Source: a virus. Taken from it: a stretch of 64,000 bases of DNA. Positions 5,519 through 39,190 of the stretch are shown one piece after another (positions within the stretch are counted from its first letter, which is position 1; each line of letters begins with the position of its first letter). Position numbers and translations under genes: made by a program. The stretch is taken from the IMG/VR virus record IMGVR_UViG_3300017917_001342, positions 124,001 through 188,000 of that record. The stretch is one strand, 5' to 3'. The notes under the pieces are model-generated. The model did not search any database. It saw nothing but the letters and a program-made list of their open reading frames with translations, and was not told the DNA's origin.

Positions 5519-5593
5519 GGGTTTGTAGCTCAACGGTAGAGCAGGTGTCTCTAAAACATCGAGGTGTGGGTTCGAATCCCATCTTACCCGCCA
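5519..5593 (+). tRNA. amber suppressor tRNA(CUA)
   Basis: The cloverleaf is complete: D-arm GCTC/GAGC, anticodon arm GGTGT-CTCTAAA-ACATC with U33 and anticodon CUA, T-arm GTGGG-TTCGAAT-CCCAT, G73, encoded CCA. The acceptor GGGTTTG/CTTACCC has two U-U mismatches. It would decode UAG. UAG still ends about six genes here (894, 3264, 6695, 22211, 42131, 53316), so it is rare as a stop, not abolished. Confidence 0.85.
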
Positions 5594-7902: not shown

Positions 7903-7924
7903 TTGATTAGTGAAAGGGCATATT

Positions 7925-8116
7925 ATGAAAATCATTGGATTTAAGAAAGGTGCTAACTCAATTAATGCTATAAAATCAGTAAGAAACCATACAGGTATGA
8001 GTCTTGCAGAAAGCAAACGTCTTATTGAAAGTGTACTCGAAGGTAAAATGGTAACACTTGATGAAGACATTGTGCTACGTGAAGAATTAACAGATCAGCT
8101 TTTTATTGTACATTGA
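7925..8116 (+). CDS. ribosomal L7/L12 C-terminal-domain-like small protein
   Basis: 63 residues. The segment AIKSVRNHTGMSLAESKRLI matches the L7/L12 C-terminal motif in which conserved Lys and helix residues contact translation factors (family knowledge). There is no N-terminal dimer domain. The ATG at 7925 follows GAAAGGG. If it folds like L12 CTD it could bind EF-Tu, EF-G or IF2, which would suit the 23S GTPase-centre mimic at 10.06 kb. Resemblance was judged by eye. Confidence 0.6.
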   Translation: MKIIGFKKGANSINAIKSVRNHTGMSLAESKRLIESVLEGKMVTLDEDIVLREELTDQLFIVH

Positions 8117-9457: not shown

Positions 9458-9973
9458 ATGAAATACTTGGCATTTTTAGACATAGATGGCGTGTTTACGT
9501 CCAACCGTGTGCAATATGCGTCTGCCAATCCCAACGATATGTGGAATAAGTTTGATCCTATTGCAGTAGACTTTATGAACAAGCTTCACGATCGCGTAGA
9601 CGATTTGCATTTTGTTCTGATCTCTACATGGAAAGAATATCTGCGCGAAGCCGATGAGCAAACGTCACATTGGATAATTGCTGCATTTCGTAACGCAGGC
9701 TTCCGCGGCGAGTTTGCTTCGCCGTGGAAAACTAACCCAGAAAACTTCCCACGTTTTTATGAGCGTGGTATGACTCGTGCAAATGAAATCAAAGAATATC
9801 TTGAAGTCTATGCACCTAGTAACAAAGACTACATTATCTTTGATGATAATGATTACGGGTTTGAAAAGGTACTCGGTAAAAAACGTTGGGTGCATACAGA
9901 CCATGAAAACGGCATCCTTTGGAAACATCAACAACATGCAATGAGCATTGTTGGCCAGTGGGATCCAAAATAA
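9458..9973 (+). CDS. HAD-fold hydrolase of the RNA-repair (SAK-HAD) type
   Basis: 171 residues. FLDIDGVF (Asp8, Asp10) is HAD motif I; VLISTWK holds motif II Thr/Ser; IIFDDNDYGF holds the motif IV acidic residues. This arrangement fits the HAD domain known from Swiss-Army-Knife RNA repair proteins and phage polynucleotide phosphatases, though the wider HAD family is possible. It lies directly before tRNA-Thr and may remove terminal phosphates from broken RNA. Confidence 0.72.
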   Translation: MKYLAFLDIDGVFTSNRVQYASANPNDMWNKFDPIAVDFMNKLHDRVDDLHFVLISTWKEYLREADEQTSHWIIAAFRNAGFRGEFASPWKTNPENFPRFYERGMTRANEIKEYLEVYAPSNKDYIIFDDNDYGFEKVLGKKRWVHTDHENGILWKHQQHAMSIVGQWDPK

Positions 9974-9976
9974 TCT

Positions 9977-10050
9977 GCTCTAATGGTGTAGTGATAACGC
10001 AGGTCCTTGGTACGGACCAATCTCAGGTTTGATTCCTGGTTAGAGCACCA
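9977..10050 (+). tRNA. tRNA-Thr(GGU)
   Basis: Acceptor GCTCTAA/TTAGAGC, A73, encoded CCA. Anticodon arm GGTCC-TTGGTAC-GGACC. Confidence 0.92.
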
Positions 10051-10054
10051 AAAT

Positions 10055-10270
10055 AAAGTATCAGAAGGTTGGCTTAGAAGCAGCACATCCTTTAAAGAGT
10101 GGAACGAAGTACCACAGGAGCGAAAGATGCTATGTCGTACTGCATTGCAAGTGGCATAGTAAGATAGCTAAGTGGGAAAATACGGATAGCAACAGAGTCC
10201 CCAGAGAATACAATGGTATTACAACTGTAAGGCAACTGTTTTCCTTTGGCGTAACAGCACACTGATACTT
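10055..10270 (+). ncRNA. mimic of the 23S rRNA GTPase-associated centre
   Basis: After a closing helix AAGTATCAG/CTGATACTT the RNA reads GGTTGGCTTAGAAGCAGC (10067-10084), then CATCC-TTTAAAGAG, and near its end GCGTAACAGCACACTG (10249-10264). In bacterial 23S rRNA these blocks form helices 42-44 in the same order, the site of L11, L10-L12 stalk action and thiostrepton. In the phage the helix-44 loop is opened and filled with about 146 nt, which itself contains AGCTAAGTGGGAAA, similar to 23S sequence just upstream of helix 42. No ORF. It probably binds ribosomal protein L11 or stalk-dependent factors as a decoy or regulator. Confidence 0.8.
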
Positions 10271-10510
10271 AGAATTCGAACGTCGTAAAGGGCATTGATG
10301 TGAAGCTGTAAACTCAGTTTAACAAGCGAAGAACCTATGGACGGTGGCATTGGTCTATGACTTGGCCATGAATGAGATCTTGAAAAATTAGATACTGGGA
10401 ACCTTTTAAGCTAACCGGGAGCCGCTATCATTCACGTTCGATTATAAGAATGCTCCTTGCTGTGTTCTGCACATTTCACGGCGAGGGAAGGGGGACAGTG
10501 CAGGTCCCCC
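10271..10510 (+). ncRNA. untranslated region ending in a strong hairpin
   Basis: 240 nt without a credible ORF. Several short pairings are possible and it ends with GGGGGAC (10489)/GTCCCCC, a strong GC hairpin without a T-run that separates this unit from the next promoter. It may be the trailer of the rRNA-mimic transcript or a second RNA. Confidence 0.4.
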
Positions 10511-10517
10511 GAGAGAT

Positions 10518-10546
10518 TTGACAAACCGTACTGTTTACAGTAATCT
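10518..10546 (+). promoter_or_regulatory. sigma70-type promoter
   Basis: TTGACA 10518-10523, a 17-nt spacer, TAATCT 10541-10546, 21 nt before the macrodomain start. Confidence 0.7.
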
Positions 10547-10566
10547 ATAAAAAAGATAGGCACAAT

Positions 10567-11016
10567 ATGAAGATCGAATATCGCAAAGGCAACCTGTTTG
10601 ATACCGACATACTGCACATTGTACACGGTTGCAATGCACAGGGTGTAATGGGATCCGGTGTTGCTAAAATTGTCAAAGAACAGTACTTCGATGCATTTAA
10701 GTTCTATGCAGAACAGTATGATGAATCAGGTCTTAAACTAGGCGATGTTCAGTTTGTACCATCTAACGGTAAAGTAATTGTCAACGCTATTACTCAAGAA
10801 AATTTCGGTCGCGATGGTAAACGCTATGTCGACTATAATGCGATTACCGCTGCAATGACTACAATCAATCGCGTATTAAAACTCGGTGGATACACAGAAG
10901 TTGCTATGCCACAAATTGGTGCCGGTTTAGGCGGCGGCGATTGGGATAATGTTATTTCAGGATTAATTGAATACGCAATGACTGATGTTAAACCTGTGGT
11001 TTATGTTTTAGAATAA
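10567..11016 (+). CDS. macrodomain protein, ADP-ribose phosphatase-like
   Basis: 149 residues, the full size of one macrodomain. HGCNAQGVMGSGVA (20-33) is the ADP-ribose-binding loop and IGAGLGGGDW (about 117-126) the phosphate loop, closest in pattern to Poa1p-like enzymes that dephosphorylate ADP-ribose-1''-phosphate, a by-product of tRNA end repair. It could instead remove ADP-ribose from proteins or nucleic acids, countering host ADP-ribosylation defence. It has its own promoter. Confidence 0.85.
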   Translation: MKIEYRKGNLFDTDILHIVHGCNAQGVMGSGVAKIVKEQYFDAFKFYAEQYDESGLKLGDVQFVPSNGKVIVNAITQENFGRDGKRYVDYNAITAAMTTINRVLKLGGYTEVAMPQIGAGLGGGDWDNVISGLIEYAMTDVKPVVYVLE

Positions 11017-29079: not shown

Positions 29080-29921
29080 CATTGGGGGTTTAGCCTCAAC
29101 AGGATAAGTGCAGTGATGCACCCAAAGCTAGAAAGCCTACATACTAGCGCCAGCAGTGGTCCATCTAAACAAGCCTGAACTAGACTTGACTCGGGTTAAA
29201 CCGAAAGCAAGTCCCGTCCGTAGAAAGGCGGTAGGCAGTAAGTTAGGAATAGTGTCCGAAAGGATAGTTGCAGAGCCAGTCGGTGAGCGATAAGAGGGTT
29301 GGCGCCCAAACACTGTTCAGCCAAACTAACGAATGCTGAAAGTTAACAGGTAGGTACAGAGTCTGAGCCCGCAAGCAAAGGCATGGTACCATTTCGAGAG
29401 TGGAAGGGTTAGGCCCCGGATACTTGAAGAAACACTGATTAGTCCGCAAGACGAAAGGTATGAGGTGTGCTGTATTGGGTATGTCAAAAGCATATTCAGC
29501 AGCCGAGGTAGCACATCTCGGATAGGTTGCAAAATCAGCTAATGGTAAGCTAATTCCCTTCTAAGGAATCGATTGCAGGTTCAACTCCTGTTTTTGAAAA
29601 ATGCAAAGTCTACCTCGGTATGTAGTGTAAGGTGTCAAATACTTGAGGCGCAAGCCAATCAAGTTCAACAAAGCTCGCAAGGCAGCGTTGATTTGTGCTA
29701 GAAGTTTCGTAGCCCGCAAGGCTTAATGGTCCGCAAGATCAACGGAAAACAAGGTGCAGAATAGCTACATACGACGAGTCTACTGCCTGACTCTAAAAAC
29801 GGCGACACTGTTAATGGACTAGGTTACCGCAAGGGACTTAGTGGATGTCGGAAGAAAGCGGCTCGCAAGGCTGGCAATAATGTCCGAAGCGTTAACATCG
29901 AACGTGTAATCTCAGCGTTTG
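29080..29921 (+). ncRNA. large ornate RNA 2, GOLLD-like
   Basis: About 840 nt without an ORF, full of GNRA-capped hairpins (many GCAA loops such as CCCGCAAGC, CTCGCAAGG, CCGCAAGA). A tRNA-like domain sits inside a 9-bp helix CCGAGGTAG (29503-29511)/CTACCTCGG (29610-29618). Size, phage context, neighbouring tRNAs and an internal tRNA match the GOLLD RNA class described from bacterial and phage genomes. I identify it by these features, not by alignment. It starts after an rRNA-type leader and ends at a terminator. Confidence 0.6.
29528..29599 (+). tRNA. tRNA-Arg(UCU)-like domain inside the ornate RNA
   Basis: Acceptor TGCAAAA/TTTTGAA (6 of 7), D-arm AGCT/AGCT, anticodon arm ATTCC-CTTCTAA-GGAAT giving UCU, a 5-nt variable loop and T-arm GCAGG-TTCAACT-CCTGT. 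No CCA is encoded. Confidence 0.75.
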
Positions 29922-39009: not shown

Positions 39010-39190
39010 ATGCGAAAAAAGGTTCGTAGTAGCGGCTAGTAATCCAGGAACCTTGCGGCAAATAAGGTGAGAACGCCCGCCTCACACACCAGCAATGGTA
39101 AAGTAGCGAAAGCGAAGAGATGTAGGAATCTTGTCTATATGGCAAGTTGAAAACAGGGACCCTACTATTTGCCAATACCCATTAAGATCG
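39010..39190 (+). ncRNA. structured leader RNA
   Basis: AAGGTTC/GAACCTT, GGCAAATA (about 39056)/TATTTGCC (about 39167) and GTGAG-AACGCCCGC-CTCAC fold within the 180 nt before the DUF3307 gene. It could be an independent ncRNA or a riboswitch-like leader. Confidence 0.45.

Follow-up and report, generated by a model that had tools for sequence, protein, structure and literature searches.

Between a tRNA-Thr gene and a macro-domain gene, a non-coding stretch of phage DNA is predicted to encode a free-standing structured RNA whose secondary and tertiary pairing is that of the GTPase-associated centre (GAC) of 23S rRNA and which carries a further domain grafted into helix 44 (H44). The stretch lies in a window of 64,000 nucleotides (64 kb), the whole piece of DNA analysed here, which contains 46 tRNA genes and comes from a virus record of 518,643 bases. 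The GAC is a classic RNA-protein switch with which elongation factors and the RelA complex make contact, and thiopeptide antibiotics target it. The 58-nt H43-H44 region of 23S rRNA folds autonomously and is the binding site of L11 (PMC4409310). At least about 130 distinct copies of the phage RNA (GAC RNA) were collected, all of one architecture. Judged by their sequences, many unrelated large phages carry the RNA, and in all copies a covarying stem closes the two retained halves of the 23S GAC, H43 and the H44 hairpin. As to function, we lean slightly towards a stable RNA that serves as decoy or handle for host uL11.

Direct reading of the window gave AGGTTGGCTTAGAAGCAGCaCATCCTTTAAAGAGT at 10066-10100, GCGTAACAGCACAC at 10249-10262 as the 3' half and remaining H44 strand, and a closing stem of 9 bp (Table 1). 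Compared with 23S, the H43-like hairpin of this copy has one additional base near 10085; its equivalent of A1067 is at 10076. The closest full-length relatives are L009/L014 (73% over 203 nt), followed by L141/L154. Positions 1098-1144 of the Rfam bacterial LSU model aligned to 10066-10116 (16.3 bits, E 0.0088), which in E. coli numbering corresponds to H43 and the H44 5' strand, and in another copy, L053, the model itself bridges the insert (33.2 bits, E 1.7e-8). Both scores come from only ~50-70 model positions and are below the gathering score of 50, and an Rfam search of the whole window for a bacterial 23S rRNA gene gave no LSU match at or above that score. Over 9960-10580, Rfam returned only the tRNA, the sub-threshold LSU match and a chance match to mir-324, and GAC RNA gave no gathering-score match to GOLLD, ROOL or any other family of Rfam 15. 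No group I or group II intron core was matched by Rfam in the window, and inserts in the family are as short as 18 nt. Folding energy was not used as evidence, because the minimum free energy of the window unit folded alone was unremarkable (z -1.76). Elsewhere in the window, a GOLLD RNA at 29462-29918 (234 bits) contains a tRNA-Arg at 29527-29600, and a skipping-rope RNA lies at 39057-39173 (46.9 bits).

Table 1. Parts of the GAC RNA and neighbouring features in the window (numbers such as 1082 are 23S equivalents)
Feature	Position	Strand	Basis or remark
Whole GAC RNA unit	10056..10270	+	First to last closing-stem base; full-length relatives L009/L014
Closing stem, 5' strand	10056..10064	+	Pairs with 10262-10270; upper-H42 position, equivalents ~1047-1055
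H43-like hairpin (1057-1081)	10066..10091	+	LSU model match; 1058-1080 and 1057-1081 covary
Junction 1082-1090 (TTTAAAGAGT minus its first T)	10092..10100	+	Tertiary pair 1082-1086 is U10092-A10096; 1056 covaries with 1082
Inserted variable domain, 144 nt	10101..10244	+	Closed by G10101-C10244 and G10102-C10243; subgroup motifs and insert alignment
UUUG linker (family: UUUR)	10245..10248	+	UUUG or UUUA in the 5'-anchored, 3'-unbiased set
H44 hairpin half GC-GUAACA-GC-ACA (1091-1103)	10249..10261	+	A1095 equivalent at 10253
Closing stem, 3' strand	10262..10270	+	Pairs with 10056-10064
tRNA-Thr(GGT), directly upstream of GAC RNA	9977..10050	+	ARAGORN; Rfam tRNA 53 bits
HAD_SAK_2 protein (HAD domain of RNA-repair proteins), flanks GAC RNA	9458-9973		
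Macro-domain gene, flanks GAC RNA	10567-11016		
68-aa protein, partial L7/L12 C-terminal-domain match	7910-8116		26.1 bits, cut-off 25.9

The initial annotation of this DNA had described 10055-10270 as a copy of the 23S GTPase-associated centre, and both the LSU model alignment and the ribosomal fold kept by covariation (below) bear this out. Its coordinates were also right, the 5' half, 3' half and closing stem being read at 10056-10270. Two structural details are revised. The H44 loop, said to be opened by about 146 nt, is intact (GUAACA), and 148 nt (10101-10248) instead enter the H44 5' strand between the equivalents of U1090 and G1091. The closing CAG/CTG helix had been likened to that of the ribosome; this match is incidental, and across the family it is the pairing of this stem that is conserved, while its sequence varies. 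The closing stem was taken as the end of the unit because the next 301 nt downstream match no other collected locus; an extension of GAC RNA through 10271-10570 was rejected, as that stretch matches nothing else collected. As a separate observation, about 300 nt of non-coding DNA at 10271-10566, also without a match to any collected locus, end in a GGGGGAC..GTCCCCC hairpin and may be another RNA.

Relatives were collected by several routes. A blastn search against phage records located the element, outside a 23S context, in Pseudomonas phages UNO-G1W1, pf16, Milchi and Astolliot and in Aeromonas phage 4_4572, where it lies near annotated tRNA genes and is either unannotated or beneath a small hypothetical ORF. 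Searching with a shorter query also recovered Xanthomonas phages XacN1 and XbC2, Cronobacter phage GAP32, Pectobacterium phage CBB, Serratia phage BF, Erwinia SNUABM phages and Kaldavass. An RNA annotation for the element is absent from every phage carrier record inspected. Matches in IME250 and cp21 were dropped (E ~4; in IME250 within a hypothetical ORF), and a match in Paenibacillus Pd_22F, which resembles a true 23S stretch, was set aside. Further copies came from pattern scans of IMG/VR, two of which fix only the 5' half. Among 53 loci with the 5' half, a matching 3' half was present downstream in all 52 that are not cut by a contig end. Since patterns for the 5' half alone still recover the 3' half, the association of the two halves was not made by the search.

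The element is rare in cellular genomes: a 21-base 3' pattern matched 49 stretches in IMG/VR versus 9 in 84,980 bacterial and archaeal species genomes, and six of the nine were rejected as chance matches, since they lie outside any GAC element and read as protein-coding. With a fixed probe, three genuine copies (L171, L174 and L177) were found among the 84,980 genomes, with genes for RtcB/Thg1, a helicase and HNH endonucleases among their neighbours; these copies probably sit in phage or mobile DNA. Copies L030, L053 and L059, from huge phages, keep more of H42 (GACAGCCAGG..CTGGCCGAG) towards its kink-turn, and this extra part is possibly the L10 site.

Covariation was assessed in 88 representatives with less than 90% identity and without indels in the core. 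The strongest mutual information was found for nine pairs of the expected structure (1058-1080, 1051-1108, 1082-1086, x1-x1', 1054-1105, 1053-1106, 1052-1107, 1050-1109 and 1057-1081), with MI-APC values of 0.28-1.0 versus a maximum of 0.128 in column shuffles, which do not preserve relatedness. Five of the six stem pairs 1050-1055/1104-1109 are among these top pairs, and all six are Watson-Crick or G-U in 84-100% of the representatives. The GAC helix pairs 1058-1080, 1057-1081, 1062-1076 and 1064-1074 form standard pairs in 95-100%, with covariation. The pair 1082-1086 occurs as UA in 47 of the 88, as CG in 27 and as AU in 10, and position 1056 changes along with it (1056/1082: GU in 39, AC in 27); in the ribosomal GAC, these positions form the tertiary pair and its base triple. 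The insert-closing pair x1-x1' is Watson-Crick or G-U in 88/88 and occurs in four Watson-Crick types. The choice of copies scored stem and x1/x2 pairing as a small part and leans towards those pairs, but this lean does not touch 1057-1081, 1058-1080, 1082-1086 or 1056, and the same pairing was also seen in an alignment whose copy choice used no pairing. Furthermore, nearly every phage RNA can form a U1090-A1101 pair; in the 23S genes sampled, position 1101 is U.

Taken together, the fold that covariation predicts for GAC RNA is the ribosomal GAC fold, tertiary pair 1082-1086 included. Because the GAC helices and 1082-1086/1056 covary, and the window copy and L053 score below the LSU gathering score, this fold is under selection outside any 23S gene. 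The blastn relatives, the 52/52 3' halves and the nine covarying pairs above the shuffle maximum exclude a chance origin. The same data bear on whether the element is a functionless captured or contaminating 23S fragment, or an intron-broken rRNA gene. Its 5' half is highly identical to 23S, as such a fragment would be. However, compensatory changes are found in all helices, the UUUR linker, A1101 and the insert site are phage-specific, and the window holds neither a gathering-score LSU match nor an intron family. Covariation already refutes this explanation, and we regard its probability as negligible.

Across the family, the insert enters H44 between 1090 and 1091, with the conserved UUUR linker. 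Its length varies from 18 to 360 nt, and inserts of different lineages mostly cannot be aligned. About 40 copies, including that of the window, share CGAAG..ACC near the start, GGATAGT, and CACCCC-GNAA-GGTAAGG before the UUUR linker; in the window these motifs read CGAAG-ACC, GGATAG and (C)CCC-GTAAGG. A nearly constant scaffold around so variable an insert, and a subgroup with common insert motifs (CACCCC-GNAA-GGTAAGG, GGATAG, CGAAG-ACC), could mean that the GAC fold is only a stable, L11-capped support and that the hypervariable insert does the work, for example by binding host RNA or protein. However, no insert is common to all copies, and the shortest, of 18-41 nt (L160, L158), are too small for much function. 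We consider this explanation unlikely.

The positions that are kept in GAC RNA were compared with 23S rRNA from 69 bacterial genomes of two phyla, using a probe that leaves 1067-1070 free and demands their surroundings. Among the matches listed, A1067, G1068, A1069 and A1070 are invariant in the 23S of the 69 genomes. In the phage set (n=88), A1067 is A in 75 representatives versus 69/69 genomes (Fisher p 6e-4), and G1068 is kept in 77%, A1069 in 94% and A1070 in 80%. A1095 is A in 49 of 52 5'-anchored copies, some of them near-duplicates. Near-invariant phage positions include 1059, 1060, 1063, 1072-1075, 1077, 1079, 1084, 1085 and 1087-1090; by the crystal structures, these presumably form the L11 face, and many are also simply positions of the fold. 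The initial annotation had held that homologues with the flanks kept but the L11-contact bases lost would speak against mimicry. For the most part this objection does not apply, as nearly all copies retain the A1095 equivalent, but the A1067 equivalent is retained only in part.

Because of this difference at A1067, the tip of the thiostrepton loop is under weaker constraint than in ribosomes. This speaks more for a role of the fold and the L11 face than for contacts of factors, thiostrepton or the RelA-bound tRNA at that site. Thiostrepton and the RelA-bound tRNA elbow both contact the H43 tip (PMC4409310, PMC5829649), and in the RelA complex A1067 stacks on the tRNA elbow (PMC5829649). By the substitutions in the phage set, this tip is less strictly conserved than the fold and the 1093-1098 loop. 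GAC RNA could also compete for translation factors (EF-G, IF2, RF1/RF2, or RelA with tRNA) through A1067 and A1095, without L11, and for example alter termination or the stringent response. The stacking of A1067 in the RelA complex (PMC5829649) and the retention of A1095 and the 1093-1098 loop would fit such competition. However, A1067 is not A in 13/88 representatives versus 0/69 genomes' 23S, and factor contacts on the ribosome also need other sites, which are absent from GAC RNA; competition of this kind seems very unlikely.

A tRNA gene lies at most 200 nt away in 58 of 121 loci, versus 33.8 expected from random placement within the same loci, and it is on the same strand in 58/58. Linkage to tRNAs is thus common, yet not required, because 40/121 loci have no tRNA within the fetched stretch. 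The frequent same-strand neighbours could point to a processing or stability element of tRNA-operon transcripts whose rRNA-like fold is coincidental. That explanation does not fit the 40 loci without a tRNA and leaves the conservation of the GAC tertiary pair unexplained, and we hold it to be highly improbable. Among the tRNA genes of the window, one with a CTA anticodon at 5519-5593 (tRNA-Pyl according to ARAGORN) is a possible amber suppressor, and similar genes occur in L018, L024 and L072. In L062, a tmRNA of the permuted/alpha type (1931-2241) lies ~110 nt upstream of a GAC 3' half, and tmRNAs are also found near the copies in L040 and L043.

No recurrent protein family was found beside GAC RNA in 93 flanking ORFs searched against Pfam and PHROGs. 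Repeats consisted of two Rad52-type Pfam matches and of scattered PHROGs for homing endonucleases, transposases and NAD synthetases, none with more than two members. An operon partner was rejected, as the nearest flanking ORFs hold no recurrent family. The two protein genes that flank the window copy (Table 1) have RNA-repair or ADP-ribose counterparts elsewhere as single cases: a 2'-5' RNA ligase (XacN1), RtcB and Thg1 (L171), an RNA ligase, NADAR and SIR2. It is possible that the surroundings of GAC RNA form an RNA-damage or ADP-ribose island. These neighbours, HAD_SAK_2 and the macro domain in the window included, and the association with tRNA genes would suit a decoy against host effectors directed at the GAC, such as a nuclease or a modifying toxin, with L11 beside the point; GAC RNA would then do for rRNA what phage tRNA arrays supposedly do for cleaved tRNAs. 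However, each such neighbour occurs once, no family recurs and the loop tip is relaxed at A1067. We also know of no defence enzyme aimed at H43/H44, which counts further against this decoy, and we rate it as quite improbable.

The initial annotation also proposed a phage protein resembling the L7/L12 C-terminal domain as a partner. The window match lies close to its cut-off (Table 1) and PF00542 is matched in just 5 of 48 records with GAC RNA, so this link was dropped. A second, stronger PF00542 match lies elsewhere in the record, at 9780-9983. An L11 gene was found in 0/47 GAC-RNA phage records, with control genomes positive in 14/14, and any L11 target would thus be that of the host.

uL11 is proposed as the target of GAC RNA because it binds the isolated 58-nt version of the ribosomal GAC. 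An RNA acting on a host factor would also fit, since no conserved protein neighbour lies beside GAC RNA. We suggest that GAC RNA would be transcribed, in many phages together with neighbouring tRNAs, and would bind host uL11. Off the ribosome, GAC RNA would then sequester uL11 or display a uL11-RNA copy of the factor-docking site, and would weaken host responses that depend on reading this site, for example RelA activation, factor control or GAC-directed toxins. The hypervariable insert, as tuner or payload, may tune or extend the effect in each phage. Since uL11 is held on many thousands of ribosomes, such a decoy must be abundant or act on free or new L11. A broader proposal is more doubtful, but possible: phages of many lineages might use a free-standing rRNA domain to draw uL11, or even the entire stalk-base site, off the host ribosome. 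A rapidly evolving RNA domain would dock onto what is captured, disarming L11-dependent responses such as RelA signalling. If true, this phage RNA would be the ribosomal counterpart of RNA anti-CRISPRs.

No description of the GAC RNA family was found in the open-access PMC literature, and a viral RNA that copies a functional rRNA domain on its own is, as far as could be checked, of a new kind. A phage RNA family with a GAC fold that evolved apart from the ribosome offers a natural mutational record of which parts of the fold serve which function, as when A1067 is relaxed and the tertiary pair 1082-1086 is kept. Such a family would in addition suggest that phages interfere with translation or the stringent response in an unsuspected way. 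Some carriers have named hosts, such as pf16 on Pseudomonas putida PpG1, which makes these proposals directly testable.

The closest known system is the 23S GAC itself (the 58-nt L11-binding domain, within Rfam RF02541), which the phage RNA matches in the pair 1082-1086, in A1095 and, by both sequence and secondary structure, in H43 and the H44 hairpin. Unlike the 23S GAC, it is free-standing outside any 23S gene and has a closing stem of arbitrary sequence, an insert of 18-360 nt at 1090/1091 with the UUUR linker, A1101 instead of U, and relaxed A1067, G1068 and A1070. Leaders of ribosomal-protein operons, for example the L10 and L1 leaders, imitate rRNA binding sites. They are alike in being natural mRNA elements that imitate a protein site of rRNA, whereas no gene family recurs downstream of GAC RNA and the 47 phage records lack an L11 gene. 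Phage RNA anti-CRISPRs (Racrs) imitate CRISPR repeats and follow the same strategy, a phage RNA that copies the protein-binding part of a host RNA; GAC RNA differs in target and sequence, and its decoy action is proposed. GOLLD and ROOL, large structured RNAs of phage and bacterial origin, can likewise sit among phage tRNA genes (PMC12286853), but GAC RNA has no Rfam match to either. Phages also intervene at the host ribosome by means of proteins, among them phage-encoded bS21 (PMC9723584), the ribosome-targeting protein PhiKZ014 (PMC10914614) and the ribosomal-protein set of PhiMa05, which includes uL11 (PMC13157829). In view of the latter we make no claim that phages in general lack L11. PhiMa05 thus involves the same protein as that proposed here, uL11; these systems are proteins, whereas in the GAC-RNA phages, where L11 is absent, it is the rRNA side that is copied.
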